64,000 nt of DNA. It comes from Calvatia gigantea. Taxonomy: Eukaryota; Basidiomycota; Agaricomycetes; Agaricales; Lycoperdaceae. Location of the stretch: NCBI GenBank assembly GCA_025093985.1, contig JACAAK010000015.1, positions 310,001 through 374,000 of the forward strand, in the 5' to 3' direction. The translations under genes and the position numbers were made by a program. The first letter of the stretch is position 1. Every line of letters starts with the position of its first letter. The notes beneath the pieces were generated by a model, which saw only the letters and a list, made by a program, of their open reading frames with translations, was not told where the DNA came from and did not search any database. Positions 6,620-43,952 of this stretch are shown piece by piece.

Positions 6620-6861
6620 CAAGTCACGCAAGTAACATGGCTTTTCATGATACGAAAAACCAGTGATCTTCGCGCGGAGACCGGGCTCGACGCCACTGCT
6701 CCATCCGCGTTTTGCGAGGGAGTGAAGTCACTTATTAAGTCGGCGAACGGGTACATTGGCTAAATCAGCAATACACCCATTCCTGTTTCATCTCTAACAA
6801 CGACAATAGCCGCCAATTCAACCACCGTACTCAGGACACTGCTCGAAATGCTAGCTGTAGG

Positions 6862-11616: not shown

Positions 11617-12085
11617 TCACTCAATACCATGTGCTTCCTGCTCCTCCTCACCCGCTGTTGCCGTTACCTCCTTGGTGCCTTTGTCCACACCCATTGTGGC
11701 ATTCAACCGTTCCACAACCGCCATAGATTTGACTATCAGCCTCGCCCAGTCAAAACAGACCTCGCAGTCGATGGTTCCGTGCTTCTTGCATTTATACGAC
11801 CAGTCCTTTTTATTAGCCAGTCGCGCACCAAAAGCGTATGCATTGAGCGATGGTCGATCCTGTTGGAAATTCAACCCAATTAGGCGGGAACGGGGGGTAA
11901 AGGGAAGCGCTACGCACGTCAAAGTCAAGGAATATCTCCTCGAGTTTCTGAATTGTCGCCTCGTCGAGGTCGACTTGGTCGTTATTACAAGCTCTGTAAT
12001 CGCAAAAACAAGAGGGACAGAATTCTTGGCCATGGTCTGCGCAGAACATGAAATTGTTCACGATAAAGCAGTCGATCGCGTCCAT
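11617..12085 (-). CDS. Small protein with two CxxHxxxxCxxC putative zinc-binding blocks (unit 2 copy, best preserved)
   Basis: There are two exons. Exon 1 starts MDAIDCFIVNNFMFC and contains CADHGQEFCPSC, then DYRACNNDQVDLDEATIQKL. The intron has donor GTGCGT after FLDFD and acceptor CAACAG. Exon 2 reads LNAYAFGARLANKKDWSYKC with CKKHGTIDCEVC, FDWARLIVKSM and an acidic Glu-rich end. Both Cys/His blocks have identical spacing (C-x2-H-x4-C-x2-C), suggesting internal duplication and metal binding. I recall similar unnamed proteins in agaricomycete genomes but no function. Related but damaged copies lie at 4605, 8225 and 15060. Upstream exons cannot be excluded. Confidence 0.6.
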
Positions 12086-12648
12086 TGGTGGTGTTGTACA
12101 AGGGAGGTGTCTTGGCGAGGCGGTGGCTTATCAGGTTCATGGAATTAGAGGGAACAAGCGAATGGGAAACTATATTTCTTGATTTAGTGACGTCACGAAA
12201 CAAACGTTCCTTCGTTTGTGTTCGTTGTTCTATCAACCAGTATCAGAGACTCATACGAAATAGAGTCTGCATGAGCTTTGGAGAACGCGGCCGACCACGG
12301 AAGAAACGGGTGTCTGTCGGCCTTTTTCCTGGCCCCGAGGTACGCAAACAGCGACTCCAGCCTTGAGCATGGGTTTTGAAATTTGAATGCTTGAGTACCC
12401 AGCAAACTGGAAACCCCAAGCGTCTTCAGAACAATCTATGCAGTCGCAGATACGCATACAGAGGGGGAGATGACAAAGTTCGAACGAAGGGAGGATGCAG
12501 GTCACCAAGAAGTGACTAGTGACCCGTGGCTTACCACGAGTTGGGGTTAGGCTCTTCACGGCCACGACGTGGTAAGTATCCGACAACATCTTACGCCCAA
12601 AGGTGTGACACTAAGTTGAATGAATTGGACATTCCTGTATTTTGATTT

Positions 12649-12903
12649 TCATGTACAACGAGCTTCGAGGGATGACCAGGCGCGGTGACGCGTCCATGAA
12701 CAAAAGTGACAATCGGATGCTTCGTGAAACTTGAGCTTGATGCACGATGCATATGATGAGTGAGGGCTGATGAGGGCTGATCCCCTTGTTTGCCCGTTGA
12801 TTTCGTCGGTATAGCCATAGTAGGACTGGCATTGTGCCATCTGATACGGCGTGGTATCATCGTCGGGTATGATCTCCAATGACAAATTGACAGCACGGAT
12901 TGC
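12649..12903 (-). other. Conserved hypothetical coding block, unit 2
   Basis: This is the counterpart of the block at 6386-6619, beginning MAIRAVNLSLEIIPDD. The downstream part carries a local 11-base tandem repeat (TGAGGGCTGA region near 12763-12782) not found in unit 1, and the reading frame then diverges. Treat as an exon remnant. Confidence 0.35.
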
Positions 12904-13146
12904 CATTGAGACACGCACGCAATACGGCTTTCCATGATATGAAAAACTTGCGATCTCCGCAAATCGGGCTCGAAGTCACCGCTCCATCCGCGCTTTGTGA
13001 GTTAAGTGAAGCTATTTATTAAGTGATCGAACACGTGTGTTGGCCAACTCAGTAATACACCCGTTCCTACTTCACCTCTAACAACGACGATAGTCGTCAG
13101 TTCATCCACCGTATTCAGGACACTTCTCCTTTCTGCCAGCTGTAGG

Positions 13147-14769
13147 GGACGGTGCAGATCACCGTACCCTTTATGAAATAATCTGGAGTTGCCTTGTTAC
13201 GATGTTCGCTTGCGCATGGGTTGCGGTGCATTCCAATGTGCCTCAATCCGATCACCGAGGAGGCACACCAACCAGGTGGGGCAACTTAAAGAGGCGAGGC
13301 ATTTTTGACGGTTGGTGCCCAGATTGCACCTAGAGTTCATGATTCTTTGGCGCAATTGGGGAAAGACTGCTAGCAGGAAAAATCGTCCATGAGTATAATC
13401 GGTTTTGTGAAATGGGTGAATCCTAACTTGCTTTAGTTTCTGATGTGAGGGAAGCTAACCTGATGACTGGGAGAGTGTGCAAATGCTCCGTTATCTGCGC
13501 ACAGGCCAAAGTGGACTCTGACCCATGCGTTCTTCCTCTTAATGAACGGGTTCATGCTCTATGACAAATAGGGGCAACATATCGGCCCCCTCATCCCTTG
13601 CTCTCCTTTTTAGGGCTATAGAAACAAAAGAGATAGTTTACTAGGCCGCCACCCATGATATCCAAGGAAGAGATCGAGGACAAGAGCAAGGGAGACTTCC
13701 TCACGAAGTTGATTGCTGTTGTTCAAACGACCTGGCTCGTTGCACAATGCATTGGTCGGACTGGATTGGGGCTATCATTGGTGGGGACCCGAGGTCATCA
13801 CACTTGCCTTCGCGATAATAAATGTTGTGGTATACGCCATGTGGTGGTATAAGCCACAGAACGTCAATCTCCCTATTTCTGCCATATCTCTAAAATATCC
13901 CGAGGCAGCCAACTACCTAACTCCAAAGGTCACGAGTCTGGATGTTCGTGGCATGGAACAAGAAGATTGCGGGGCGGACTCGGGCGTTGAGCAATGTCTC
14001 TCACTCGAGTTACAAACTTCATACGACAAGGCAAGAAAGGAGAGATCGCCATACATCCGGCCATTCTTCAGGGTGCCTTTTACCATGGCGACTCAGGTGC
14101 ACTCAAATCTAAATTATGTGTCATATCAGGCTCCTACACTCCGCCTATCCCTTGTTAGAATAATGTAGACTTACAGTAGATAACTGATCCGTCATCACGT
14201 GACTCAACACTCATCCATCGTTTCACGCTGTCCTCACCCTCAGTCTTGCTATACGTCGACCAATATCTAATTATTCACACAACCTATGCTAATCACAACA
14301 TATAGTCTATTCCAGGTACTTACATTAATATCAGTCTTGCTACACGTTGACTGAGGTCTATTCTAACCACTGCGCGCCCCTTTCATTCCTTTATCCCTTG
14401 GATTTTTGCTTACAATATTTGGTAGCTTCCATTTCTTCTCCTGGTCAGCGATCTTTCCCTCTGTGGCAGAAGGGCGCTTGTGGCGGTTCTTTTCCATTGT
14501 CTACCTCGTTATCCCATTCACGAGTTGGTACCCCTTCACTTTCTTATATGACGCGAAGTTGAACGTGGACCTGGGATTTTGACAGGGTTCTAAGAGTGCG
14601 GTTCAGGGTCTCCGGGAAGCAGTGGTGCAATATTCACTCCTTTTATTTCCTGCATATTTTTTTCGCTCGTCTTGTGTTGTTTATCATTGCTTTGTCTTCC
14701 CTTCGTTCCCTGCCAGAAACTGCATTTGTGAATACTCAATGGAGTAGATACATACCGCACTTTCAGTAG
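13147..14769 (+). pseudogene. Multi-pass membrane protein, unit 2 copy
   Basis: This is the second copy of the family at 6862. It keeps IIWSCLVTMFACAWVAVHSN, ISKEEIEDKSKGDFLTK, EVITLAFAIINVVVYAMWWY and a C-terminus ending RYIPHFQ at 14769, which is the usual family ending. Lesions: a TAG in the FMLYDK..GQHIGPL region where unit 1 has a Gln codon (about 13577), a TGA where unit 1 has Trp (LGF, 14578-14582), a 237-base insertion at 14155, and seven instead of six T at about 14657. The damage is independent of that in unit 1. Confidence 0.6.
14155..14391. mobile_element. 237-bp insertion flanked by a 9-bp direct repeat
   Basis: Relative to unit 1 the coding sequence is interrupted between two copies of TATCCCTTG (14146-14154 and 14392-14400). 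A 9-bp target duplication is typical of Mutator-like elements. No clear terminal inverted repeats are seen; TTAGAATA at the left end recurs inverted about 25 bases inside the right end. Inside, CAGTCTTGCTA(T/C)ACGT occurs twice as a direct repeat. A small non-autonomous DNA element is the likely explanation. Confidence 0.5.
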
Positions 14770-22111: not shown

Positions 22112-22901
22112 TCACCAATGAAGCCTATGTGTGGGACACTGATATCCACTTGGATTCTTAAACAGATACAACTGGTGATAGTCTTCAGCGTCCCACCATT
22201 GGGAAGCGGGCATGATCTCTGTAGCAATCTTCTTGCCTTTGGGAGTGAAATGTTTGGCCTGAACTTCCTGTGTCACCCGCCTGGCGATGACTTCCTGCTC
22301 CTGGGAGTGATAGAAAATCGCCGAGCGATACTCTGACAAATACGACCGCGGTGAGCGGTGCAAGAACACAGAAAGACCTGGGACAATACATACGGGTGCC
22401 CGTATCAGCGCCTTGCTGATTCAACGTGGTGGGATCATGAGTGCGATAGAAGAATTCTAGTGGCAGGTAATACCACATTGGTTATCAATTGAATTGCGAG
22501 ATCCGTCTGAGGCTCACCAACAAGCTCAGCATAACCAACTACTCCAGGATCAAACTCAATCCTTAAAGCTTCCGCATGATCTGTCGCTCCAGTGCACACG
22601 CTCTTGTATGTGGGGTGGGTCACAAGAGGATTTCCACCGGTGTACCCAACAGAAGTCTTGAGGATTCCTTTGTTTTGAGAAGGGGGGAAATGCTTGAGAA
22701 AGATGTGTTCGACACCCCAAAAGCAGCCAGCCGCGAACGTCGCAATCTCTGGTTTATGAGCCGCTGAAAATTTGGATGTGGATGGGTGACTTCTCTCAGG
22801 ACGGAGATGAAAGGTGGCACACCTGACGACATTGCAGTGCGATATTTCGCAGGGTCGACGATGGGAGAGGCACTAAGAAGGGTTTTTATACGGCCTAGCA
22901 T
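22112..22901 (-). CDS. msrA: Peptide methionine sulfoxide reductase MsrA
   Basis: The enzyme reduces methionine-S-sulfoxide in free or protein form, using a cysteine in the GCFWG motif. Reading the minus strand I find ATFAAGCFWGVEH, GYTGGNPLVTHPTYKSVCTG, HAEALRIEFDP, then after an intron FFYRTHDPTTLNQQGADTGT, and after a second intron YRSAIFYHSQEQEV and a C-terminus ending THRLHW at 22112. All are hallmark MsrA blocks in the right order. Joining the second intron gives the canonical GTQYRS. An intron near the 5' end joins MSS to AAHKPEIATF. Translation may start at 22901 (MLGRIKTLLSASP, possibly a mitochondrial presequence) or at 22832. No frame breaks were found. It is the last gene of a minus-strand run that includes the UstYa genes, but it is likely housekeeping. 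Confidence 0.9.
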
Positions 22902-23143
22902 GGAATTTCGACCCGATAGGATCAAACTGATCAGGGAGGTGGGAAGGGCCGTGTGAGGAACAGTTGTGCTCGACGGCGACTGATGGCGAAGGATGGCGAG
23001 CGCTCCCGACTTAGTTTGGTATGTCATCCAATGTTTTTGTTGGGAAATTTGTGACAAATATCACGTGGACACGGCTTCTATTTTACAATCAAAATCCTTC
23101 GTCGTTGGGATATCAATCTACGCGCCAATAGCACGAAGCAGGT

Positions 23144-23666
23144 CTACGAAGAATCTGGGGTCTTGTTGCCAAAGTTATTGAAATTCTCTTGTGGGCGTTC
23201 AGGCAAAGTTCAAGTCGTGCACCAGAAACCGACTCACCAGGCTCCCCTGGTCAAAAATCAGAACTCTTAAATGCGCTCTTTGGAGGAACGTGAGCACTCA
23301 CTAGGGGAAATTGAATCGGGTGTTCGGTTGCCAGAGTTGTTGAAATTTCCTAAGACCATTTGTCGAGTCAATCGACGACCCTGAAAAGAGGATATTTACC
23401 TGGCTGGGCCGACCCTATAATTGGAAATGTGCGTTAGATATGCCTTGTGTTCTGGTGACCATACTCACGGGGTTCATGGTCAGGCGTCGGATTTCCGACG
23501 GGACTGAAGTTCGCGGCCCCCCCTACGTAATCGCTCAGGACAGCTTCTTTCCTAGGGCATACCTGCACTTACTGTCGCTGATGGATGGCGTCCCTCTCAT
23601 ACCAATGGGCATGCTGCTCACGAAGGACGAAAGAGCAAGCAGCACTGCGATATGTAAGGACTTCAT
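23144..23666 (-). CDS. Small secreted repeat-peptide precursor, about 79 residues (candidate RiPP precursor A)
   Basis: There are four exons, 23573-23666, 23469-23522, 23302-23349 and 23144-23187, all joined by phase-1 introns. Exon 1 encodes a signal peptide (MKSLHIAVLLALSSFVSS) and a short spacer. Each following exon encodes one repeat: NFSPVGNPTPD, NFNNSGNRTPDS and NFNNFGNKTPDSS, the last ending at the stop. A basic residue precedes the second and third cores if these splice sites are used. Two of the introns are long enough (about 115-119 bases) to hold in-frame micro-exons of 15 and 9 bases (23400-23414 and one near 23240), which would alter only the spacer. A start two codons upstream (23672) is possible. 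A homologue lies at 31708 and UstYa-type genes lie immediately upstream. I infer a ribosomally made, processed peptide; direct evidence is lacking. Confidence 0.65.
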
Positions 23667-23709
23667 GATCATTAGATGGGATGTAAGCACCTGGGCAAGG
23701 TGGGTCCCC

Positions 23710-23718
23710 TTTAAATAT
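23710..23718 (-). promoter_or_regulatory. TATA-like box upstream of precursor A
   Basis: The minus strand reads ATATTTAAAG about 45 bases upstream of the ATG at 23666, a usual distance for a short fungal 5' UTR. Confidence 0.45.
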
Positions 23719-24446
23719 CGAATGCAAAAGAAGACCTCCCCCGGTTCAAGAATCACAAAAGAGTGGCGGAAAGTCACGCTGTTGACAGATCAGGATGGAC
23801 AAATCTTGATGTACTAGGACAGATAATCGGTACTGTGACAATAGGCGCATTACCACCCGTCACCTTGGTGGGATGGAGCCCAGGAGGTGCTGGGTGTGAA
23901 TGAACGAAACGAGTGATTTCATAGAAATAAGCTTTCTGATCTCGGGAAAATAGGGATCGAGGAAAGGATTGGAACGCCGCGTATTCCCAATTAAGTTGCT
24001 CCCAAACATGAACAGGATTCGCTCTTCTTCCCGAATCTCACAATGGCATGGCGCTGAAGCGAAGAAGCACTAAGTAGTTCCGGCTATCACGCAAAGCCGA
24101 AGCTCAATTTATCAAGAACACGTTCTCACCCTCAATTGAGAACGAGACGCGAAGAAAAGCATTCTGTGGCCATTAAGCTCTAAGTTATACCTCAACGCTG
24201 GCGTGTACCCTGCACCATCCCCCTACTAACGTTTATTAGAGGGATCCTAGATAATCATCTCGATTGGCTTATACCTCATGAAGGTTGACTTGATTTGGTA
24301 TGAATGGGTTCCCAAATTAGAAAATCCGCATGTCTACCTAACTATTTCCCATCTCTCATCCCTCCTTTTAGCCGGGGGTGTACCGCATTATTGCCCAGCC
24401 GAAGCATCAAGTCCTCAGTAATCTGGGAGAACTGGCCAGAAAACAA

Positions 24447-24785
24447 TCAGCACGTCGTTTCGGAAGCGATTAAAAAGAACTCCTTACCCCCATTCTCACT
24501 TTTGCCTGCGTCGGATAGGCCAGCAAAAGGGTCTGGCCTAGGTAATTTCGTGACATCACGTCCCATAGATGAATATAAATTCTTAATCTCCTGCTGCGCT
24601 CTCCAACTGACTGCCAGGAGTCCTGCGTTCAGCACGAGTACGAAGAAACAAAAGACATAGATCGCTCTGAGAGACAATGCCTTTGTTGCTAGTGTATGCC
24701 CCGGCTGATTCACATCGATGGGGAGCTTGGAAGTGTCGTCGTTGGGTAGGAGAGTTTTGGTTTCTTCGTCACGATCGGGGCTCAT
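24447..24785 (-). pseudogene. UstYa/DUF3328-type protein, N-terminal part only
   Basis: It starts MSPDRDEETKTLLPNDD, has one membrane segment (IYVFCFFVLVLNAGLLAVSW) and the post-membrane helix AQQEIKNLYSSMGRDVTKLP. That is how basidiomycete UstYa-family (DUF3328) proteins begin. The two HxxHC motifs and the HxCRxW block expected further on are absent in the following 400 bases, and the frame stops at 24447. I read it as a truncated relic of the neighbouring genes; an undetected distant exon is less likely. Confidence 0.5.
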
Positions 24786-25102
24786 GGTGGTTGGAGAGAG
24801 GGCTTCGAAACAATAGGCTGCGGCTACATTATACACAAATCGGTGTAATATGAAATGATGGTGTCGGGACTATTACAGGCATCCTCGGATAGATGCCTTG
24901 GGCGACAACAGAAGCAGAAATAGAGTTTGTTTCATCGCAAGATTGGCGATGAACTTCGGAAACCCGCATGATTAGATATAGCGAACAATGGACAGGAGGC
25001 GGCTAGTCCATGGGAAACGGCTGTCTTCCATTGGTTTCATCAATATTTGTTTTTACTATGCACTGGAAGCTGGCATACCAACTGAGATCAAACACTGTCA
25101 TG

Positions 25103-25778
25103 CTATACGCTCCCAGAATGATGGTTATTCGCGAAGTCATCCTTCTCGGCCAACGCCCTGAGCTGCTCCCAATTCCTGCATACGTGAAGGACGTTCATCC
25201 CACTTGCAGCTGCTACTACCTTTCCATTTGAAAGAGTTTCTGGATGCGAAGGCTCAAGAGTTGTGTCTCCGTTGCACATAACTGCTTGGCGTAAGATGTT
25301 CAAACAGTGGTGTGCCCTGTCTGATTTCGTTTGGTCGTCCTCCCATCCGGGATTCATGTATAGTTTTCGGAGTGTGTTCAAGCACGAGAGTTGGTGATAG
25401 ACAGATATGTACTGGGTGTGCTCGCTCGCTGGGTCGAGGTGGACACCGGATGCATGATTTGAGGGCTAGTAGCGACTCCCATTCAGCGTCCGCACCCATG
25501 CCGTAGTGGGCATTTGCATCAACGAGTTGGGCTACTTGGTCCAGATTGAAGGGTACTTCGCTCTGCCCGGAGCTCATTTCTAGCTCTGTTAATTATATCC
25601 TCAATGTTGAGCTACCCACTTGAAAAGAAGGATGCATACCTTTCGTGCTCCGGACCCTGGATAAGACTAGGATATCATTCCAGGTCGATATGGCATTGAA
25701 TATTGAACTCAAGACAAGTATGCAGAAAAATGGGAGCAAGGTCTGAACGGGTATGCTGGCGTAGTTGGTGGACTTCAT
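25103..25778 (-). CDS. UstYa/DUF3328-family protein with altered HxxHC motifs
   Basis: Exon 1 starts MKSTNYASIPVQTLLPFFC and contains a single membrane anchor. After an intron come FNLDQVAQLVDANAHYGMGA and the catalytic half: YHQLSCLNTLRKLYMNPGW, then AHHCLNILRQAVMCNGDTTL and HVCRNWEQLRALAE, ending at 25103. UstYa proteins are single-pass oxidases that use two HxxHC motifs to cyclise or hydroxylate ribosomal repeat peptides. Here both are changed: HQLSC has Ser for His and RAHHC has Arg for the first His. One extra base near 25466 breaks the frame between AEWESLL and the next block. It may be catalytically dead, or have diverged. Confidence 0.65.
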
Positions 25779-26288
25779 GCTAGAGTTGCAAGCGCTTTCG
25801 TGATTGCAGTAAACCGGGTGGCAGCACCACTGAGACGATATCAAAGGGGAATTGATCGCTTATCAGTGAAGTTAATATCCGTCCTCTGACTCTTCCACCA
25901 GCCAAAAATAGCGTATATCCCTCGACCTTGTGAAGCGCAGGGTGACGATTGCTGTGCATGGATCAAATGGGCAGGAGCTTGATATCCCTGAGTCGAGATC
26001 GGGTCCATCTATCTTGATTTCGGCGCTGGGGTTTCCATTTTGCGTCTGGGACTAGCAAGTAACATGGAGGATTGTTGCATCCTGTATGAGCACAATATGA
26101 CACATGCCAAACCCGGGTCGTAATTCTGTCTTTTGTTCTTCCCGACATACGCATCAAGGTTGAAGGCCGGGTAGCTGATTATTGTTAGAACAGACATTAA
26201 GCATCGGCGGGTATTAGAGCGACTCGATTAGAAACTCTGGCAGAATATTATCCCATAGTACCACTACTCTACGTCGAAGTGGCATGGC

Positions 26289-27084
26289 TCAATCAAAGTA
26301 GTGTTCATTTTCCTTAAAATTCTGCTCCATGAAAGTCCGCACCTGCACCCAATCGCGACAAACATGAGTCATACCTCCCGTACCTCCATGAGTAGGTTCC
26401 AAAGTCAGATCAAGGCCGCATTGAAGGCCTTGACGAATGTAGTTGTAGCAGTGATGAGCATGGCCCAGCTCCGCAGCAGTTGGGTGCTTCCCGATCTTCG
26501 ATTGCGTAAGGTCATAACGCATCGCGTTTAGGCAGTGAAGCTGGTGGTACATGGTAACTGCGTATGACCGCGGGCCTGGTTCGAGCACCACCCAGCCGTT
26601 GCCGGGTGGCGTCAGGGATTCCCATTCACGTACGTCGTGGAGGCCGTAACGGGTTGTGTCGTTAAACGTCATGACCGCATTGCGAACGTTTAAAGGCAGT
26701 CGGCGAGGATTCCCATCAAGAGTGTATGCTAGAGTGGTCGGGGAGAGTTAGCTGAAATCCTTTTTGATATAAGGATTGTGACCAACGGAAGTTCACATGA
26801 GTAAAGAGTAAGGACTTGACTTGCAGAATCATGAAAATTCGGAGAATGTTGAAAATAAAAACAGGCCATGCATGTTACAGCGACTATGCTGTATGGTAAG
26901 TACTGGATGATATCAGGTGCTACTCAACGGAGGGAAACTGGGGAACGTATACCTTGCTCTTCGGCAGTCTCATCCTCGATGATAACGTCATCCTCATAGG
27001 GAATTTCGAGGAGTGGGGTCGGGTCGTGGAGGTGACTGTCAGTGGAGAGTTGGCCATAGTGAGGGCGGTAACGGACGATGTCAT
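26289..27084 (-). CDS. UstYa/DUF3328-family oxidase with intact motifs
   Basis: The last exon carries TMYHQLHCLNAMRYDL (HxxHC), then HAHHCYNYIRQGLQCGLDL (second HxxHC) and MTHVCRDWVQVRTFMEQNF, ending at 26289. These are the defining motifs of the UstYa family in the expected order and spacing. Upstream exons read HYGQLSTDSHLHDPTPLL with acidic residues and a short hydrophobic exon (IVAVTCMACFYF) that would form the membrane anchor. The start is uncertain: an ATG at 27084 is out of frame by one base, and an open frame also reaches 27214. Likely a secretory-pathway membrane enzyme acting on a peptide, and the best catalytic candidate for the nearby precursors. Confidence 0.75.
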
Positions 27085-27665
27085 AAGCACAGCAAACCAG
27101 TTGACCGCTCTCGGGTGTCAAGCGAGTGATCAATCGATCACGACCAGCAATCACAAGGAGTTGATTTGTAACGTCGCACCAAAGGGGCCTTATGCATGAG
27201 TGTAGATGTACCACGTCAGAAATATTTTAAACCTCCTATGGTCGGCGATATTCACTTGATTTAGGGAAATAAATCTAGATTAGCCTGGACATACACTGTA
27301 TCCCCATAAGGAACATATGCGATCCAAAATAGTGGAATCGATACCTTGAAAACCCCCATGATTGTGCGAATGTTCGGGTCCAGAATAACTTATGTGTGCA
27401 CATGATGAAGAAGCTTGGTGCCACTGGCAATGTGCGAGCCGCGTGAATGGAACCGAAGGACCGGGAGCAGCTCGTCTTGGGTTGAACCTCAATTCTGCTT
27501 CGGAGTCACAGGGTGCGCGGTCACTCCTATTTATTGCAGTATCAAGACCCAATGAATTCTCTAGGTCTATCATAATGTCCAATTTTTCGTAAATTATACT
27601 CGTGGGGAACCGGATTATCCAAAACTACAGCTAACACCGGGGGTGAGTGCACCATTATCCTTTCT

Positions 27666-28707
27666 TTATCCTTCATGCAAAAAGAGTCCAACGACCTGGA
27701 AGAATTTCTCCGTCTCCTCCAAATGGGCCGTATGACTGGATTCCTGTCACATCCCATCAGCGATACTCGAGGGCATACAATGTGAAGAAAGTACCGAAAA
27801 TTGAATCCACCGAACCCTGGGAATTAACTTGAAGAAAGGGTAGACACAGCTATCAGCCGCTTCATCCTTCCAGCCATTCACAAGAAGAACCGGAACCACA
27901 ATCTTATGGGCCTCGTCAATTATTGTCCAGTCCTTAATAGGACCTGTCATATAGAATTCTGATGGGCCATTCCTGAGATGAGGGTCAATGCTCTGATTCA
28001 GTGGTGGGAGGTGAGACAAACATTGTGAGATAAACGGTTGGGTCTTTTTCAATCCATCCGAAGCTCGTCTGAAGAGCTACTGGCATTGGATCTATGGTGC
28101 AAAGAAAGCGAGAGTAGTAGATCTTGACTGCATCCTGATATTCTTTGCTGTCCGTCTTTCCTTCCTTTTCGCACCTATCGAGGGTGTCCTGAACGTCTTG
28201 TGGGAGCTTCCGTCGAAGGACCTCTTGTGCCTCAATCCAAAGCTTGTTTGAAGCAGGGGACGACACAATCACAAGCCGTTTCAGCCCTCCAGGCTGCCTG
28301 ACGGCGTGACGTGCCCCCAACATCCCACCCCATGAATGCCCAAGGAGGTCGTAGTCGTCATAAATCCCGAGATGAATTAATAGATGTTTCAACTCGTCCA
28401 AAAACAACTGTTCCGTCCAGAATGCAATATCGCCCATCTTCTCCCGAAAGTGCGTCGAGAGCCCATTTCCTAGCTGGTCATACAGAACCACGGGAATGCG
28501 GCTCTTGAAGGTGAGAGCGGAAAAATTGGTAAGGTAGTCGGAAGTTACACCGGGACCACCGTGCAGGACCACCAATGGACGAACCCCTGATTTTAGGTCG
28601 CCGTACACCTTATACCACGTCTTGCATTCCTTCCCTGCACCTGGCGCGTCCCAGACCATCTCCCCTTCCGACGTCGGTATGTTGTCGCGACTGTTTGTTG
28701 TGGTCAT
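27666..28707 (-). CDS. Proline iminopeptidase-like alpha/beta hydrolase (S33)
   Basis: It begins MTTTNSRDNIPTSEG. An alpha/beta-hydrolase fold is shown by VVLHGGPGVTSDYL (oxyanion loop HGGPG), DQLGNGLSTHF and the nucleophile elbow LLGHSWGGMLGARHA (GHSWGG). After introns come the acid region (VLLVNGWKDEAADSC) and a last exon with SSHTAHLEE, supplying the catalytic His, ending LFLHEG at 27666. HGGPG plus GHSWGG is the signature of proline iminopeptidases, which remove N-terminal proline. No signal peptide is seen, so it is probably cytosolic. It lies 0.6 kb from the UstYa gene in the same orientation. It could trim Pro-containing peptide fragments, but such enzymes are also common alone. An upstream in-frame ATG exists at 28755. 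Confidence 0.85.
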
Positions 28708-28730
28708 TTGGGGTTGGGTTGTAGGATGAG

Positions 28731-28793
28731 GGAACGATCTCAGAGCCCGTTGCAAATTAAAGGGAACGATCTCAGAGCTCGTTGCAAATTAAG
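28731..28793. repeat. 32-bp tandem duplication upstream of the hydrolase
   Basis: The unit beginning GGAACGATCTCAGAG is present twice in direct succession (28731-28762 and 28763-28793) with one substitution. It covers the upstream ATG and may affect the 5' UTR or promoter. Confidence 0.8.
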
Positions 28794-29109
28794 GGCCCTG
28801 GGCCTAGAATCCTCCTGGCCCATGCGCCATTAATCAATAGTTAATCCTTCCGTGGTGAGGATACCATCGGGATACCAGATCGGTCGTCGTGGGAAAGCTG
28901 GAGTGGGAATTTCGCAATTTCCTGAGAAATTGAAGTCTCTTGGATATTGAAGCCGTAAATGCAGGGACACTGGGGAGGGGTCACAGAACAGAATACATTC
29001 ATTATTTGGTATCACAACTACGAAGGTAACATGGGGCGACGCAGAATCTTGCCTCAAACCAGGAACAGGAGGGTCATATTGCGCCGGATAGTGGGGGTAT
29101 ACTGGACCT

Positions 29110-30323
29110 TCAGGCTGATTCTTTCTCCGCAAAGCTTGGGTTACTAACATTCGTCGCTTTGCTCTTCACCGTTAACGTAGGGCCAGTATCGGCGGTTTGA
29201 AGGGCGGTATTGCTCGTGTTATTAAACCGTATATCAGTTCCAGTTTGGAACTTGGCGAGAGATGCCGACGACCAAGCACGGCCTTGGAGGACTCGCAAGA
29301 TAATCAGCAAGGGAGCAATTGACTATTTAAGGTCAGTACTTTTCCCATGTCAGGGGGATAGAGGGCACACCTGAGTTTGTCCCAGAACCGGTAGTGCAAG
29401 ATTTTGGATGGGGCTATTGACGGCGTAGCTGACCAAGAAAATCAAGCCGTTGGCAGTGTAGAGAGCCGCTGATTCAATCATCATGGACGTGATGGAGATG
29501 TACTCGGAACCCGACTCAGCCAATACTCGGCGCATCTGGTATCTCATGTAGAGGAGTCGACTGACGATGCAAGCAGTGATAAGAACATTGAGGGCAATGG
29601 AAATCGCCCAGTAGGGGATAGCGAGATTGATGCTGATTGTGGACCAAAGGGTAATTCCAGGGACACAAAGCATGACGATGAGAATGAGTGAAAGGGCTTA
29701 ATTTTTTAACGTTAATCATGGGAGGTGTTGCGGGGATGACAAGTGACACACCAACTGAGGCAAGGAACATAAGGCTTGGTAACACAACCCAATACCAACC
29801 CATGTGCGAGAAGAACATCCAGAACCGGTAGAGCTGGGGCGGCACTTAGCTAGCTGTTTTTAGGATGCTACCGACAATATCCTTACCAACAACCCATCTT
29901 GGAACCAGGTATTGATGATGTAGACCACATTGCACGTAAGTCCAACGGGACCGCCACCTGTGGCGAAAAAGGCATTCGGACCCCCAGGGAAATTGCGGTT
30001 ATCCACAAACGTCAACTCTCCGACCTTGATATTCGTTCCATTGCCAACATTGCCCATAATGAACAACAATGAAACATAGAGCATCAGGAGATAATCTCCT
30101 CGCTTTTTATTTTTATGGAGTAAAAGGTTGAAGCACCAGATGAAGAGAGTGAGATGGACACCTTCACAGATTCAGCGGATCATTGATCAGTCAAGTAGGC
30201 CCCAATAGAGGTGATTCCGCACATACCATAGGCGATAGCACCGAGAAAGAGGCCATCTATGATAGTCCGCTCGTTGTAGAGCTCGAAAGGCGACTCGCCG
30301 GGTGGGGCATTGGGGTTGCTCAT
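29110..30323 (-). CDS. Multi-pass (about 7 TM) membrane protein, copy 1
   Basis: Exon 1 starts MSNPNAPPGESPFELYNERT and continues into a first helix. Later exons give HLTLFIWCFNLLLH, YLLMLYVSLLFIMGNVGNGT, GLTCNVVYIINTWFQDGLLV, YRFWMFFSHMGWYWVVLPSL, WSTISINLAIPYWAISIALN and NGLIFLVSYAVNSPIQNLAL, with a Ser/Thr-rich cytosolic tail ending at 29110. Introns are short and in phase, and no frame break was found. The layout (short outside N-terminus, about seven helices, polar tail) is that of an agaricomycete-expanded receptor-like family of unknown ligand. A second copy is at 53196 and a fragment is at 56590. Confidence 0.8.
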
Positions 30324-31707
30324 GGTGGAAGGAGTTTAAGCGCAAGCCTGGGAGCCCATCAGCAATGTGGGCAAGCGACAGGTAAATTCGCCCGCGATTT
30401 CCATGGCCTTTGGGAAAGAACTATGTTTAGATGAAAGGCGCACATGGACTTGGGACTTTCTCGAGGTTTGGCATGCCGTAACAATGGTGTCACGGTGGCC
30501 GCTATGAATTGAATGATACGGGTAACCTGGTCCCATCAGAAAAAGATGCGACCCTGGCCTACACCAACCGACCCCGTTGATGCCTAAACATCTCGTTTCG
30601 AGTTGGGCGACATATGAAGGTTGAAAAGATTGATAAATACTACGGGCACAGAATGATGAAGGTTTAAGACGGCCCAGTGGGAGCTCACTTGACGTTCCAC
30701 TCAGGTGTCCATCTAGAACCTTGATGCCCTGTCACGATCAGTTCTGAGAACGGCAATGGATTATAATAGCAGCATTTAGATATGCCGAATAGGCGCTATG
30801 CGATTCCTCCACTGTGTGGAGTACTTGGGGAATCATCGCCAAAAACAATGTTATTCACTACTAGGGCGACGACTTGTTCTGTATGAACCGCCAAGAAGAG
30901 GTGCCACCGCCAGTCGACATGATTCAATCAAATGGGCGGGGGAGCGTAACAACCCTGTTACCGAAACTTGTTTTAAGCCAAGATGGCTTGGTGCCGAGTC
31001 AGATGAGCTCCGGTGCAAAATGAAATGGGCTGAAGGAGGGGGTTTGAACGGACGGATACGACAATGCGCCCGCTACGGTCAATCCTTAATAAACCGGATA
31101 GCCCCCATACCCATCAACTTCCTTTCACCTCGAGCTCACAGGCGTATAATAAAAGGTTCCCAGGGAGAGTCGCCACCGCGCTTCGGATTATTTTTGGAAT
31201 TCACGCACCTCTACACTGACTCCGTAACTGCATTGTTGCATTATGAGATGTCATCTCCTGATTCTATCCCCATCTGACACATCGAGTTGCATGTTCTCAG
31301 CAATGCCAGTCGAAACAACTTGAATTTGGAACAAACTTCCTAGAAATAGAAGAGCAGCTGTGGCACCAAAGTTATGTAGAAGCACTTCACAGCAGTTGAC
31401 TCGAGTACCTCCATCTATGGCTACAGGCATTTATCAGCATAAAGGAAGTAGAATCTCACATATACACAATGTCAGATTCCACTCGATCATTTATGAGTAT
31501 GATTAGAAGCATTTGTTTGAAATGTAGCGGATAGAAACAGCGCTGCCGAACGTGAAACAGTATCTCCTGCGGACAGATGCCTTTCGAAGATCAAACTTGA
31601 GCACTGCTGTGGAAGGGTTCTGCGTATAAAAGGAGCATTGGAACAATCCTAAAGCATTCTCCCCTCAACTTCTTACGTTCCCGCTTTCTTGTGAACAGAG
31701 CTCTACT
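30324..31707. other. Intergenic region between membrane protein and precursor B
   Basis: A 159-codon plus-strand ORF (30798-31277) is present but shows no recognisable motif, no intron signals around it and Arg/Pro-rich chance-like composition. I do not call it a gene. Confidence 0.35.
31625..31633 (+). promoter_or_regulatory. TATA box of precursor B
   Basis: TATAAAAGG lies 75 bases upstream of the ATG at 31708, with a pyrimidine-rich stretch between them. A strong canonical core promoter. Confidence 0.6.
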
Positions 31708-32155
31708 ATGCGTTCCATCGTTGCCCTCATCGCCGTTTTGTCGGTCCTGTCCAGCCTGGTATCCGCAGCACCTGCCGCTAACATTCTTGAGCCCCGTGAG
31801 TAGCCGCAGTTCACAAGGCCGAGGAGCGATCTTACTCAAAGCTTTCATAGTAAACTTTGCTATCGTAGGCAACCCAACGCCCGATGCAAAGACGCCACGA
31901 GGAGATATTCAGCCTCGTAAGTTGCAATTCATTTTCACCTATTGCTGCTTCTAACTTCCGCAAAGGGGAAGAGAGTGCCAATTTCAGGATGGTAGGGAAT
32001 CCTACAGGCGACTCCGATCAAGCTGATCGAGCCCGACGTACGTATTCCGCCCTAAATTAACCGTAATTAACCAGCTCAACCGAGGGACCATACCAATAGG
32101 GAGTAACTTCGCCATCGTCGGAAACGCCACCCCAGATTCTCCCCATGATGGCTAG
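31708..32155 (+). CDS. Small secreted repeat-peptide precursor, about 91 residues (candidate RiPP precursor B)
   Basis: There are four exons, 31708-31795, 31851-31916, 31972-32037 and 32100-32155, all joined by phase-1 introns. Exon 1 encodes a signal peptide (MRSIVALIAVLSVLSSLVSA, likely cleaved before AP). The two middle exons are each exactly 66 bases. Each later exon encodes one repeat: NFAIVGNPTPDA, NFRMVGNPTGDS and NFAIVGNATPDS. Spacers contain Arg-rich ends such as DQADRAR followed by an Arg created at the splice junction, a possible Kex2-like site. An alternative acceptor for exon 2 (31842) is also in frame. It is homologous to precursor A on the other strand 8 kb away, with the core NFxxxGNxTPD shared. 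No cysteine is present, so it is not a disulfide-rich effector. Confidence 0.7.
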
Positions 32156-33217
32156 TCTTGACTGCCTAATCATTCCCATTGTCCTTTTTTTCTTTCGTAA
32201 ACCCGGAGTCATCTTGAATAGTGGGTATATTGGTGTTATTGCGATTTTGTATTTTTGTGGACATAGACAATAAATTATATCGGTGTGATGATCTGAGAAT
32301 TGATTGACTAGTTGACCGCTATCGTTAGGAACCGATGTCTCTCGAATCCAGCGCTATCGCCGGGTACCTGTAGAGGGGTATCAATGAGACCCTTCCCGAG
32401 GGATCTATGAATAAACCGAGTAGTTTCCCCCCACAGTTCGGATCCGTAGCTTAGGGGCGATCAACTCACCCCGAACCCGGATCTGATATGAGGCGGATCC
32501 GATCCAACCTTCAGATACCACTCTGACTAGGGAATGATGTCCTACTCGTCCAAGTTCCAAACATTTAGGCTGACGTCTGAGACACTTACCTTATGTGCGT
32601 CATGATTCGTGCGGTGGTAAATTAAAGGGTTTTCCTTCTGCCATGTTCTAGGCCCTCTCGTGACCTACATTCTAAAGGCCATAGCTTAACCGTGCTACCC
32701 AAGCGGTATGAGCCATTTTATAGACCACTGGGTTATCGATTCAATGACATTGATCATGCCGGCGCCCACGAGCCGTCGGGATCACGGGCTGGTCGGACAT
32801 CGATGCTGCCATCACCAGCTCTCTCTTTTAGCTACTTACCTAATTTTACGATTTCGGTTGGAGGAGCCTTCCTTCTTGGCGCCCGAGGTTTTTCAACTCA
32901 AGTCCATGTGAACTTTCCTTTTCTTTCTGCAGTAGAAGCCCTCCTGACCCAAGACCCAGCGTATTTCTGACAACCTTGGCTTTGCCAAGGGATCGAGTCC
33001 ATTCAACATACGTCCCCATCCACCCTCCTTTGCGCTAGATCGTGAACGCCGGGCCCCCTGCTGGTCATTTACCATGCGTACAGACGGGTTGAAGACAGCT
33101 GAAACCACATGTTAGGCAGCTAAAAACAACTGAAGAACGACAGCACAACATGGACGTTGTCGACAGCTGTAGTATAAAAACCCAACTCTGGATGCGAGAT
33201 ACTCTGGCTCAACAACG
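32156..33217. other. Intergenic
   Basis: No gene recognised. Short ORFs around 32692-32970 have no motif. The right end is the promoter of the metalloprotease. Confidence 0.4.
33173..33180 (+). promoter_or_regulatory. TATA box of the M43 metalloprotease
   Basis: TATAAAAA lies about 40 bases upstream of the ATG at 33218. Confidence 0.55.
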
Positions 33218-34364
33218 ATGAAATCGATATTCCTCAGCCTTTTGCTTTGTATTTCTGCAGCGGCGGCAGCGTTGCTCAATGGAACCTCTTTGAAAAGGTA
33301 CAATACCAAACGCCAGTCGGTCGGTCGGTCGGTCGGTCGAGGAACGCTAATAGAACGAATTTTCAGATGTGCAACAGAAATCAGCGATGAGGAAGTCGCT
33401 AAGGCGGAAGCGCACTTCCAAGCCAACAAGGTTCCTCCCCCAGATGTCGCTGTTGAGGCTGCGACTATCCAAGTATATTTCCACGTCATCAGCAGTTCCA
33501 CCACACTAGCTGGTGGAAACATTCCGTACGTACTTGCCACTGTTGCGAGTCTTGTAAGATCTTACCCCTGGTTTAGCGATTCCCAGATTTCAGCCCAGAT
33601 GCAAGTCATGAATCAAGCATATGCCGGTGCTGGAATTACCTGGGTCCTCGCGGGTACTACACGCACGGTCAATTCGGATTGGTTTAACAGCGCTGGACCG
33701 GGCTCAAGCCAAGAAACTGCGTTGAAAAACTCCCTTCGCGTTGGTGGCGCAAACGTTTTGAACGTTTATACTGTCGGGTCAGTCCACCCACTTCAATCCG
33801 CATTCCGCTTTCTTACGCGGATGGATTTGACTTGCAGATTCAGATCTGGCTCTGGTACCGGCCTACTTGGTTATTCTACCTTCCCTTCTAGCTATAGTAG
33901 GGCACCGAAGGATGACGGAGTCGTCATGCTCTTTTCATCCGTTCCTGGAGGGACAACAGTCCCATATAACCTCGGACAGGTCGGAAATCAATATCTGACA
34001 CGACTGTTTTTTACTTACTCTTGGGCAGACCTTGACTCACGAAGCTGGACACTGGGTCGGTCTTTACCACACATTCCAAGGTGGTTGTTCCGCCACTGGA
34101 GACCAAGTTTCCGACACGCCTCCTGAAGCCTCCTCTGCTTTCGGATGCCCTACAGGCCGCGATACTTGTTCTGGAGGAGGCGCCTGACCCCATTCGTGAG
34201 TTCTTTTTTTCTCAAGCGTGGTATAACTGGCCGTTCTAATTTCACCGTAACCTCAGACAACTTCATGGATTACACCGACGATGCTTGTATGAACCAGTTT
34301 ACAAGCTGGGCAGGTCACCCGGATGAGAGATCAGCTCCGTACCTACAGAGGTATTACAATCTAG
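33218..34364 (+). CDS. Secreted zinc metalloprotease, M43 (pappalysin-like) family
   Basis: It starts with a signal peptide ([19 protein letters not shown]) and a propeptide-like region ([20 protein letters not shown]). The body has [38 protein letters not shown] and [12 protein letters not shown], as in fungal secreted M43B proteases. The zinc site is [15 protein letters not shown] (HExxHxxGxxH), followed by a Cys-containing loop with [14 protein letters not shown] and the Met-turn [16 protein letters not shown]. All introns close in phase. Two single extra bases (near 34183 and 34307) disturb the last exons; ignoring them the protein ends RGITI at 34364, the usual short tail. Likely an extracellular nutrient protease of about 290 residues. 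Confidence 0.85.
33316..33339. repeat. (GTCG)6 microsatellite in intron 1
   Basis: Six perfect GTCG units lie inside the first intron of the metalloprotease gene. Confidence 0.85.
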
Positions 34365-34863
34365 AATTAAGAATAAGCACTATTTGGCTGCGGCAGGTCT
34401 TTCTATAAGGTGTATTCTCTTATCTCTAGTTTCGTATTGAAAAGGTTGCAAAACGGTGTTGAGCATCCAGTTTTTATGAGATAGCCTATCTAGCCGCTTC
34501 GCTTGAGACAGACAAGATTCAACTTGATTTGCAGATTTGTTACACTTAACGGTGCTGCTCTGTCACGACAGGTATTGTTCGCGAAAGGAAATCCTCGTAG
34601 GAATATGAGCATCACTCATGAGACTGGGAATGATAGTATGGGCAGCGTTAAACCCTCTTAGCTCAATACGAGACCTGGCCCAAAGCCTTTTCTTGGCAGT
34701 GTACGGCGTTTACTTGACATAACATGGGATCTCCATCAGGGCTTCTTTGTTGGCACATGTGAAAGGGCGCCTCAAGCGGTAGACGGACTCCCGCCATCGT
34801 CTCAAGGCGTTATGTCCAGTCACGGCTTATTTGGCATTGAATGATGTACTACAACCCAGCGAA
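34365..34863. other. Convergent 3' ends, no gene seen
   Basis: This is the space between the metalloprotease and the transporter, which converge here. Nothing else recognised. Confidence 0.4.
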
Positions 34864-37266
34864 CTATAATACGTATCGGAAATCACGGTTCTGGATATCA
34901 GTGAGATCCAAAAATTCCTGCGAAATTGTCAACAATCAATCGTTTCATCGCATTGACTCCAACGTACCTTGTCAACCCTAAGTTTATCGATGCTTCCATC
35001 ACTGCTGACTCGTTCAATGTACACCTCATCATACGTCGTGTCGCGCGTCTCGGCGTCGCGTTGTTTGTTCTCCTTATTCATGATGTATCGCAGAAGCAGC
35101 ATTATGATCATGCACATCAAATAGCACACGCCGATGATTATCCACGGGATGTGATTTCTAGTTTAGGGAATAAGTTGATTGTAGGGTAGTCATCACATTA
35201 ACCCCACCTTGGCCTGTATTGGGCTTGCCACATGAAGGGTCCCGCGGCGTTGCCGATACAGTATGCGGAAAGCATGATCGCATTGACGGTAACCCTCTTC
35301 GTGTGTCCGGCAGTAACACTTGATAACCAAGACAATGCAAGGACAAAACCCGTCGTACCGACCCCTAAGGTCCTGGGAATCAGGTGTATATCATCTCAGA
35401 TGAGAAGAGTCCGCGTACCCGTTGTCCATTGAGCGAAAAGAAGTCCTACTTTGTTGGTCCAAGGGAGGAAATTGATCAAAAAGACACCGATCAAGTTTGG
35501 CACCATGTAGATCACACCAACGTAGGCACGACTGTTAGGAATCCTAGAGGCAAGAGTAACTCCGGTCCAGATGGTCGCAATTTCCACAGCGCCATCCACA
35601 CACCCAAGAAGCGTGGTTTGAAGTGGCGTAAAGCCAAAAGAAGAAACAATGATTTGTCGTTGATTGGTGAGTGAATTGGGAACATTGTCGAGAGCGGAAA
35701 ATAGAGCGAAAAGCCATGTTTTGGGGTCTAAAAAGGCCTCATATAACCTGTTAAAAGGTTGTCAGTTGGGGTGCGAAGGAGTAGAAAATCTGACACAGAC
35801 TGTTCCTTCTTGAACCGTTTGTTCTCCACTCCTGTTTGGTTTTCCTAACGAAAACATTGCTGAAGTGATGATACCGAGCCATTAGGACTACAAAAACCCA
35901 CCTTGATCCTCCTAACTGCATTCACCCGCTCCTCCCTCGTTAAGAACCAGGCCGTCGTTGGTGAATCGGGGAAAAAAAACCTACAAGAACTCATGAGCTC
36001 GCATTCCTTTAGCTGTTGATGACGTCACGCACCAAAAGGATAGTGCCGTCAAAAGGGTTAATACCCCTGTGATTATCATCAACCTGTTAAGCAGCTTGAG
36101 TCTTCAGTTTTCTCGCTAGGTCCCTATCTTACCATTGCCAGGGTTCGAAAGTTTTTGTATGGATATGCAGCGTCCCAAAGCTAATGAAACCAGATATTAT
36201 CTGAGCTAAGTCCGGTATCAAAGTCAGCGGTGTGACCCTCCCCAAGAAGTATGGACTTCTGGACCTGTTCCATTCATCAGAACTGCAGCAGGTAAGCGCA
36301 TAAAAGCGGGGCAAGAAGCTAAGGCACTCACACCACCACCCCACTCTGACTGTTTGTTCATTTCTTGTATAGAACATTGATGTCACAATCAAGAAGCCAG
36401 CGGTTATTGAACCTTCACAGGCGCCAAGAATCAATCGGACAACGAAAAGACCTGCGAAGTTCTTGCAAGCAGCATGGGAGCAAAGCGCTACTGCCCAAAC
36501 AAATATGTTGAGACTTTTGCCAAGTGAGAATAGTCCGTCATAGGTGAGTGGCAAGCGGACCTCATCCATTTCGCTACTGGGAATCTCTGCAGGCAAAGGT
36601 TCTGGGGAAACTCGAATGCGAGATAGCTAAGATAAAATATAGTCCCAAGCCTATGAAGGTACCATTGAATCTTGCGTTAGTTACAGTGTCCAGCACTTGA
36701 TATGGTGGCTGTACCAATTATATCTTACGAAAGATAAGCTAGGTTGGCGAAGTATGACAAAACACATACTGATTGGTGGTCAGATGGGTCGCCTCCCTGG
36801 GAATAAGTGAGAAAGGTTTAGATTGGTGGAGTTAGTAGTAGAGACCTGATGCCTAATATTGCAGCGCTTCCCAATGTGGTTTTATCCATAAACTGGATCC
36901 TGCCATTTCCAATTGAGAGATGCTCCCCTTCTGCACCTTGAGGCGTACCAATAAAGGACTTTGATGAACACATTGTTTCACATTAGAAACCGTCATAGTG
37001 TCTTGTGGGTGAAGACTCACTGCACATGAGCGGCATGATATGCCTGTCGATTTTGCGGCTAGAATACTGGATGAACGGGGTTTTTGGAGTTAGAAAGTTA
37101 TACCACATACCGTATTCTAATGGCCTCCTTGAGGTCCAATATGCCCACTGCGCCCTGCTGCTAACTCTGCGGCAGTATCTACTTCCTTTGTTGAAACGAG
37201 AGCGTCGGATTTTTTCTCAGAATTCGCAACTTTTTCGTCATAATCGAAAGCAAAAGAGGATTTCAT
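34864..37266 (-). CDS. MFS transporter, anion:cation symporter type (allantoate/Dal5-like)
   Basis: It starts MKSSFAFDYDEKVANSEKKS at 37266. After introns come RKIDRHIMPLMC, then FMDKTTLGSAAILGI (the DKTTL motif of the first helix loop), EATHLTTNQY, IFYLSYLAFEFPQNLCLQRF, NIFVWAVALCSHAACKNFAG, FVVRLILGACEGSITAGFLI, SGFISFGTLHIHT, FFFPDSPTTAWFLTREERVN, then ALDNVPNSLTNQ-type and GVTLASRIPNSRAYVG segments, and a cytosolic tail ending DFRYVL at 34864. DKTTL, GxxEGSxTxGF and PDSP..A.FLT..E are signatures of the fungal allantoate/nicotinate permease branch. About 12 helices are expected in the plasma membrane. The substrate cannot be read. Position between precursor B and the mannosidase makes an export or uptake role possible but unproven. 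Confidence 0.85.
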
Positions 37267-41800: not shown

Positions 41801-43952
41801 TATACGGTTGAGTCGCTTACTTTGTGGTTCGTCAACCCTTTGTTAACGTCACCAACAGTTAGCTTGAGCAGTGTATGTGTCGACTATGCGGGTGTTGTTA
41901 GTTGTGATTGGAAGTCGAGCCTTGGAACATTATAATTACCGGGTGTCATGTGGCATAGTACTTGAGTACCGTCAATACCAACCCAGTTAAAGGTAGAGTG
42001 AGGGAAGACGTTTCTAGGTGCCATGAGTCGAAGATCAATCCTTGGCATAAACGTTGGGGTCTTACATATTATTCCTAGATGACCGAAGAAGCACGTCAGT
42101 TACAACGAGTGTAAGGAGTGGCAAGCCTCATACCATGACAATTTTTGGGTGAAGAAATACGTCATTCCTAATATCCCTCATGAGCTAAGGGAATTATAAA
42201 AAAGGGGACAACTTTACCAGCGCCTCGAATAAGTTGCGGTAACGCTCCAGTCAACCCGAATGAATCAGGTAACCACGCCGTCTCACAACGTTTCCCAAAT
42301 CTTGACTCGAAATACCTCTGGCCGAAGAGGAACTGCCGGACCAACGCCTCTCCGGAAGGCATATTCGAGTCGTTTTCGACCCAAGACCCTCCAACAGTGT
42401 GGAATTTTCCCTCTAACACCTTTTCCTTCACACGCTCAAATAGAGGTGGGTAGAGCTGTTCAAGCCATTTGTATTGTTGCGCTGAGCTGCAAGTAAATCT
42501 GTGCTCTGGATATCTTTCCATGAGATCAACTTGAGTTGACCATGAGCGGGCCACTTTTTGTTGAGTGACCGAGTAAGGCCAGAGCCAGGCGCTGTCGATA
42601 TGACAGCTGCACATGCATAATGAGTGATTGTAATGAAGACGAAACGTAAGTGGTGCTCACTGTCCAATACCCCAGATATTCGATTTTGCTGGTCCTTCAT
42701 TGTAAATCGCATCACCTTTCGCTTCCCATCCTTCACCAAACACCTCTTCTGCTTTCTTCCTGGATGCCGCGATGCCGGTTGCATCACCTCGCTTAAAGAT
42801 ATTCATTATTTCATTGGCAGTTGTCAGGGCCTTATTTTGTAACCTGGGTCTGTCTTTAGTGGCGTGCTAACACCACAATAAACGAGCTACTAACGGCGTA
42901 TTTCCGGGGAGTGTATCCACGAGCTCACGGAGGGTTTGGAAATCCCATAAGAGGCGCCACGCTTCTTGGTTAGGGACGACAAGGTCCGCGGAAGCGAGAG
43001 TGAAGTAGCGGTTCATCTAGCGATCACAAGGTGAGGAAAATGAATAAGGACGCTAACGTTTGAAACACTCACATCGGGAGGTTGAATCGTATCCCCATTC
43101 CAGGGGACACCAAACATACCATTGCAGCTCGACTCAATAATGAATTCGTGGATGCCTTCTTCCCTTGCTGCGGGTGGAATGATGTATTCGACACGACGGT
43201 CACCGCCAAAACCGCCAGTAATGCCTGCGGGCTGGGTGAGCAGAGTCACAAGACAGAAATGATGAGGATTCAGACCTTGGAGAGGGACGCCGTCCACGGA
43301 ATAGATCATGGCTTCGCATCCTGGATCAAATTCGACTAGGGTGTCCGGAAACGTTAGGAAGGGGACTCGGAGCAACACTATGGCACTTACACTGGACACG
43401 TTCATATTGCTTGAAATAGTCAGGAATGACGACAGTAACCTTCCACCAGTGATTCGTCTGGATTCCCATGAGAAACCTTTTTAATTGTGCACACGACACA
43501 AACTCACCCCTAGATTGGAGATTAGCGAAAGCGAAAAGCAAATTGAATTAGAGAATAACACTCACACGAAGGACCAAAGGAATCCCCCTTTTGCGGTTGA
43601 GTGGATAGAAAATGGATAAATGAGACTTCGCACACCTTTTTTGCCGGTTTGAACTTTTGGTTCATTGCCTCTTCAAATGAAGGCTTTGACAATCCTGGAG
43701 CGCTCCATCTGTAATTTGGTCATTCAACACAAATGTTGACGAAATAAAGTCATGAAAAACTGACACTTTCAGCTTGACGAAATCTGGGCCGTCAAGGCGG
43801 TGTGTAAAGAGAACAGAAGAAAGATTCACGTCCGAGTAGTGGCCGCCTAGAAAGTTGTCTAATCGCTGTCTTGTAAGACCTTTGCTCCATTTTGCTCCGG
43901 CGCCATGATTGAGCTCAGGATATGAGCTGTGGGAGTGGTGACTACAACTCAT
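38872..43952 (-). CDS. AMS1: Alpha-mannosidase, GH38 (Ams1-like)
   Basis: It starts [20 protein letters not shown], followed by [20 protein letters not shown], the usual opening of fungal Ams1. Many short exons follow: [40 protein letters not shown] and [20 protein letters not shown]. The catalytic domain has WGIG joined to [13 protein letters not shown] (zinc-binding His/Asp) and [17 protein letters not shown], whose Asp is the nucleophile. The C-terminal sugar-hydrolase domains include [20 protein letters not shown] and [14 protein letters not shown], and then an unusual poly-Pro tail before the stop at 38872. About 1,100 residues, as in the family. It hydrolyses terminal alpha-mannose in the vacuole or cytosol and takes part in turnover of free oligosaccharides. 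The exact 3' end could be earlier than 38872. Confidence 0.85.

Follow-up and report, generated by a model that had tools for sequence, protein, structure and literature searches.

A stretch of 64,000 nucleotides (nt) from the Calvatia gigantea genome (contig JACAAK010000015.1, positions 310,001 to 374,000; hereafter the window) contains a locus in which two genes for small, putatively secreted repeat peptides, precursors A and B, flank genes of the UstYa/DUF3328 family. Judged from the sequence, there is good support for such a locus in a basidiomycete: the repeat precursors are conserved, an intact, motif-bearing UstYa gene is present, and UstYa genes were detected at only three loci in 46 Mb. 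By analogy, a dikaritin-like locus that makes a modified secreted peptide is the explanation we consider probable, if only just. Coordinates and domain matches are collected in Table 1.

Exon-organized precursors with a shared core

An earlier note on this DNA had placed two cysteine-free precursors at 23144-23666 and 31708-32155. Both positions proved right, with three cores in each gene and no Cys past the signal peptide in either product. The cores of A (NFSPVGNPTPD, NFNNSGNRTPD, and NFNNFGNKTPD) and of B (NFAIVGNPTPD, NFRMVGNPTGD, and NFAIVGNATPD) share the consensus NFxxxGNxT[P/G]D. A hydropathy scan indicates signal-like N-termini for both, and A has an additional in-frame ATG at 23672. 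All eight introns are of the GT-AG type, measure 49-62 nt (50-55 nt in A; 55, 49, and 62 nt in B), and interrupt the reading frame after the first codon base (phase 1). Every core occupies a separate exon in both genes, and the linkers preceding cores 2 and 3 of A are encoded by micro-exons of 15 and 9 nt, respectively. Because all internal exons are phase-symmetric, the gene models predict that skipping any of them would preserve the frame.

The core recurs beyond what chance would give. In six frames of the window, NF...GN.TP[DN] occurs five times and GN.T[PG]D six times, always within A or B, and both motifs are absent from 60 kb around the other two UstYa loci. The stricter form NF...GN.TPD had no match in 300 first-order Markov random sequences of 64 kb. 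Searches of the same genome (45.95 Mb in 77 contigs, the window being part of contig C7) with the A and B proteins returned no further copies at E<=10, with query models that were short of a few linker residues.

A profile built from A and B, run against about 5.8 billion proteins (451 candidates), identified a relative, P0001 (E 4.4e-27). This 135-amino-acid protein is encoded by an intron-free metagenome open reading frame (ORF) on a 1456-base contig from the source jgi. Read from its second Met, it aligns with A over 87 residues with no gap, the micro-exon residues included. Identity reaches 29 of 33 residues in the cores and 16 of 19 in the signal region and falls to 18 of 35 in the remaining post-signal residues, so that linkers are less conserved than cores. 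As P0001 lacks introns where A has five, it looks like a spliced transcript, which supports the model of A. In all three proteins (A, B, and P0001), the sequence downstream of the signal peptide is free of Cys, Tyr, and Trp. Another candidate, P0002, is not significant (E 7.7) and counts as no more than a lead; the core it contains, NFAIVGNPTPD, is identical to the first core of B. When the profile search was repeated with P0001 added to A and B (222 candidates), it again retrieved P0001 alone. Relatives are thus few in the searched protein database, which, in our impression of its sources, consists mostly of material other than fungal genomes. Across 10 cores, one of them from the non-significant P0002, the residues N, F, G, N, T, and D never vary, and P is present in nine. 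On these comparisons, A and B are a real, conserved family of predicted peptide precursors adjoining an intact UstYa gene.

The UstYa genes of the window

The UstYa gene at 26289 carries HxxHC twice, as HQLHC and HAHHC, and both motifs are invariant in all 14 aligned rows. Among 122 candidates, 13 homologues reach E<=0.001 with 40-91% identity, and those named come from Crepidotus variabilis (62%) and Hygrophoropsis aurantiaca (40%). The two N-terminal exons were modeled by hand, are unmatched by homologues, and remain uncertain; reading the first exon from further upstream in a different frame gave no ATG, and this alternative was rejected in favor of the in-frame model. A PDB search with the protein gave no sequence relative, its two matches at E 1.1 being unrelated. 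An AlphaFold2 model of the C-terminal exon, based on 14 rows, had a mean predicted local distance difference test score of 46.2 and was not used.

Three UstYa genes had been counted in the earlier note. PF11807 supports two of these, one of which looks intact, but not the ORF at 24.4-24.8 kb, in which Pfam detected no catalytic domain at E<=10.

Processing sites and proposed maturation

The linkers of A consist of a single Arg followed by X-Ala or X-Pro dipeptides. Taken together, all six linkers of A and P0001 read Arg-(X-Ala/Pro)n-x-NF, five after a single Arg and one after RR; among 200000 shufflings of the same residues, with linkers delimited by hand, 83 fit this pattern. Dibasic sites past the signal peptide number zero in A, one in B (before core 3), and one in P0001. 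The genome itself contains one match to P_proprotein (Kex2-type) and one DPPIV_N gene.

From these features, a maturation route can be proposed. A and B would enter the secretory pathway, where a Kex2-like protease would cut after the single Arg and a Ste13-like dipeptidyl peptidase would remove the X-Ala/X-Pro dipeptides, as the linkers of A and P0001 suggest. Peptides with the form x-NFxxxGNxTPD would result. Their core would then be oxidized by the neighboring UstYa enzyme encoded at 26289, by analogy a dicopper oxidase, and the proline iminopeptidase-like enzyme may trim it further. As the mature region has no Tyr, Trp, or Cys, the oxidation would have to target Phe, which is invariant and could react at the beta carbon, for instance, or else Asn, Thr, Pro, or Asp residues, and a Tyr ether is excluded if UstYa acts on these cores. 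Oxidation at the Phe C-beta, or dehydrogenation of backbone or side chain, is our guess at the chemistry.

Papers given here by PMC number are cited from the accessible part of their text. According to PMC12186524, UstY enzymes belong to the dicopper oxidases and, in asperipin-2a for instance, link Tyr-O to Phe-C-beta; the works it cites include studies on dehydroamino acids and on a copper halogenase. The Ste13 signature is reported for the linear repeat precursors of basidiomycetes (Kex2-processed repeat proteins, KEPs) and, in the same accessible text, is not predicted for ustiloxins or phomopsins (PMC6339444); linear Ste13-trimmed peptides have been detected in mushrooms (PMC9769878). The Ste13-type dipeptides of A and P0001 are thus in line with another explanation, in which both precursors yield linear, unmodified secreted peptides, either alpha-pheromone-like hormones or effectors, and UstYa acts elsewhere or is a remnant. 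The lack of Tyr in the cores and the broken or partial state of two of three UstYa ORFs point the same way. Against it, A and B flank UstYa genes and no other copy was found in the genome; the intact UstYa gene is conserved, at up to 91% identity in relatives; and all four small secreted-protein genes considered sit at the three UstYa loci, the only places where they were looked for. We rate unmodified linear peptides as possible, yet rather unlikely.

Several observations weigh against the dikaritin-like reading. In the UstYa gene at 25103-25778, the reading frame changes near 25.47 kb and no intron fits there; either the gene is disrupted or this part is mis-assembled. Its motifs are degenerate (HQLSC and RAHHC), and the pair of HXXHC motifs is not found in it. 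With one UstYa gene broken and one fragment beside it, the locus may be decaying. Cleavage after a single Arg differs from the classical Kex2 signal, and the linkers of B fit the dipeptide pattern poorly: they read EESA (a partial fit) and S, no Arg precedes core 1, and the X-Ala/X-Pro pattern is missing for two of three cores. Tyr is present in 65.6% of the repeats of UstYa-linked KEPs (PMC7329392) and in none of those of A and B. Linkage of A and B to UstYa is known from one genome only, and the modification, expression, and product of the locus are predictions. The equivalence to dikaritin systems proposed in the earlier note accordingly holds as an analogy rather than as membership, with one of three UstYa genes looking intact and without the dibasic Kex2 sites of the ascomycete dikaritins. 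In favor of the dikaritin-like reading, cores are better conserved than linkers, the genome has members of both predicted processing enzyme families, and UstYa genes were found at only three loci in 46 Mb, one of which is situated between the two precursors.

UstYa loci elsewhere in the genome

The three loci with PF11807 matches are the window, C23:782-788k (C23a), and C23:4380-4390k (C23b), although the searches may miss genes: a further genome search with the C23b protein revealed no new locus and overlooked C23a. Each locus comprises two Pfam-matched UstYa genes, together with a gene for a polytopic membrane protein no more than 5 kb away and one for a small secreted-type protein; models of the latter two kinds were partly made by hand. 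Phase-1 introns also interrupt the small genes of C23a and C23b, in the latter with a GC donor at the first intron, and neither gene has a paralogue in the genome. The C23a gene is a candidate single-core precursor. A repeat ORF of the NNGTDTSDVNA type about 2 kb from a C23b UstYa gene (L013, 1489-1881, minus strand) has no basic sites between its units and was rejected as a precursor. Four of four small genes (A, B, and those of C23a and C23b) carry a TATA-like box that precedes the ATG by 51-87 nt, compared with a background of 98 of 2222 window ATGs with a box within 25-120 nt.

Such an arrangement could indicate a signaling module, repeated at three loci, that pairs a modified secreted peptide with its own receptor-like membrane protein. 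The membrane proteins belong to one broad family with 38 genome matches (E<=0.01, C23b exon query), three of which lie within 5 kb of UstYa genes, one per locus. As the intervals of 5 kb on either side of all 38 matches cover 0.65% of the genome, the nominal p for three of three loci is 2.8e-7, a value that concerns an association noticed post hoc and ignores gene clustering. The phase-1 introns of the small secreted-protein genes at each locus and the TATA-like boxes of all four also agree with a recurring module. On the other hand, 35 of the 38 family members lie away from UstYa genes. The match of the C23a member is of marginal significance (E 0.0027), and the closest relatives of that member, on contig C4, have no UstYa match nearby. 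A crude hydropathy scan of the window protein gave eight peaks and not seven, so that the topology of a G-protein-coupled receptor (GPCR) is not claimed; no Pfam GPCR family and no PDB sequence relative at E<=1 was found. Membrane proteins are, moreover, common in fungal gene clusters generally. We regard a signaling module of this kind as improbable. The fuller scheme seems to us no likelier: a repeated unit of UstYa pair, precursor, and receptor-like gene whose peptides, once modified by the copper oxidase, would serve as signals to the adjoining membrane protein. In A and B, where cores and cleavage sites occupy different phase-1 exons, exon skipping could vary, in frame, the cores that are joined or released. 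The domain DUF6534 (31 genome matches) was excluded from the association count because the window membrane protein is not among them. A second copy of the window membrane-protein gene lies 24 kb from the first (53196-54420, plus strand), with 73% DNA identity over 993 bases.

Other genes of the window

Two further assignments of the earlier note were borne out: the proline iminopeptidase-like hydrolase resembles solved proline iminopeptidases, with 3wmr as the best match, and the M43 protease matches PF05572. The proposed MFS transporter scored 16.5 bits against a cut-off of 33.4, and two more exons gave no family. As for the two suggested P450 genes, one exon reached 19.6 bits against a cut-off of 22.8, and the exon searched from the other gene had no match. 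Both were excluded from the locus since they fall below the curated cut-offs.

M43 proteases, MFS transporters, and P450s are common gene families. Their presence, together with the frame break and the fragment among the UstYa ORFs, would suit a chance neighborhood of small secreted repeat proteins with another role beside a decaying UstYa group. Yet the three UstYa loci take up a tiny share of the 46-Mb genome, and one of them harbors A as well as B, which makes coincidence very improbable.

Beyond A lies a peptide methionine sulfoxide reductase gene (22112-22872). A 32-nt tandem duplication (97%) occupies 28729-28792, just upstream of the ATG of the proline iminopeptidase-like gene. A Glycosyl hydrolase family 38 exon is present at 42168-42656 (minus strand; PF01074, 1.2e-52), and a duplicated stretch with P450-like exons inside spans 44814-46960 and 49872-52046 (73% identical). 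Blocks of 1777-8156 recur in the same order in 8785-14695 with 76-92% identity, as either a tandem segmental duplication or a mobile element.

Table 1. Predicted features of the precursor-plus-UstYa locus and of the two other UstYa loci
Feature	Locus	Position	Strand	Evidence and remarks
Precursor A, 87 amino acids, six exons	Window	23666-23573, 23522-23469, 23414-23400, 23349-23302, 23246-23238, 23187-23144	minus	Hand splice model, script-checked
Micro-exon of A, 15 nt	Window	23400..23414	minus	Most of linker RSAQP(G); P0001 equivalent RAARPE
Micro-exon of A, 9 nt	Window	23238..23246	minus	Most of linker REP(E); P0001 equivalent RAPT
Precursor B, 93 amino acids, four exons	Window	31708-31795, 31851-31916, 31966-32037, 32100-32155	plus	Hand splice model, script-checked
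UstYa/DUF3328 gene, apparently complete	Window	26289..27084 (exons 27084-26953, 26902-26821, 26728-26289)	minus	PF11807 2e-18 on 26289-26747; in-frame model
Second UstYa gene, broken or mis-assembled	Window	25103..25778	minus	PF11807 1.3e-21 on 25103-25465; N-part ORF 25254-25592 without Pfam match
N-terminal ORF with a single transmembrane segment	Window	24447..24783	minus	No Pfam family, also at E<=10
Proline iminopeptidase-like alpha/beta hydrolase	Window	27747..28705	minus	PF00561 3e-14 on 27985-28788; PDB 3wmr 6.2e-60
Polytopic membrane-protein gene, several exons	Window	29110-30323	minus	Seven-transmembrane-like; ESAALY motif
Secreted M43-type metalloprotease adjoining B, putative locus member	Window	33218..34408	plus	PF05572 3.1e-11 on 33999-34187
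Polytopic membrane-protein gene	L009 (C23a)	about 3875-5152	minus	ESAALY/ESAAPY motif
Small secreted-type gene, 70 amino acids	L009 (C23a)	8177-8439	plus	C-terminal end TPTPTPTRPHFGWPFRSYDDE; just downstream of UstYa gene
Polytopic membrane-protein gene	L012 (C23b)	about 5056-6429	plus	ESAALY/ESAAPY motif
Small secreted-type gene, 85 or 90 amino acids depending on acceptor	L012 (C23b)	7055-7435	plus	Between membrane-protein and UstYa genes

Comparison with known systems

UstYa genes in mushrooms and DUF3328-linked repeat precursors in Basidiomycota have already been published, and the general idea is therefore not new. The family itself is represented by 16 UstYa-like genes in Pleurotus ostreatus (PMC8893723), although the accessible part of that paper describes no precursor. 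DUF3328 was found near 103 of 1680 Basidiomycota KEPs (PMC7329392). The core family of A and B, the layout with one exon per core and micro-exons, and a Tyr-free UstYa-linked core were not found in the literature as far as its text was accessible; supplementary KEP lists lay outside this scope and may hold such cores. Nor was any literature found that joins "Kex2-processed repeat" with "exon". The terms "intron", "exon", and "splic" are absent from PMC6339444 and PMC7329392, and "intron" is used once in PMC9769878, for cDNA cloning.

A and B resemble the KEPs of Basidiomycota in their signal-like N-termini and repeats, and A also in its Ste13-type dipeptides (PMC6339444, PMC9769878). The survey definition demands three or more repeats, each of 8 or more amino acids, between KR, KK, RK, or RR (PMC7329392). 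Since these flanking sites have to be dibasic, A, with none, and B, with one, would fall outside the definition as given in the accessible text. If the proposed reading is true, the locus represents a type of precursor that is missed by surveys requiring dibasic Kex2 sites. For peptides of this sort, the accessible text of PMC6339444 treats the receptors in Basidiomycota as an open question, and the membrane-protein genes near UstYa at all three loci are named candidates for this role.

Another close parallel is with the dikaritins ustiloxin, phomopsin, and asperipin-2a. Following the criteria of PMC12048977 and PMC7329392 (two HXXHC motifs and a repeat precursor nearby), the likeness consists of a repeated-core, putatively secreted precursor beside a DUF3328 gene with two HXXHC motifs. 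A and B differ from dikaritin precursors in that their cores lack Tyr, dibasic sites are few or absent, each core occupies its own phase-1 exon, and the host is a basidiomycete. Should the dikaritin-like reading be correct, the known substrates of UstYa enzymes would gain a Tyr-free, Phe-centered core family.

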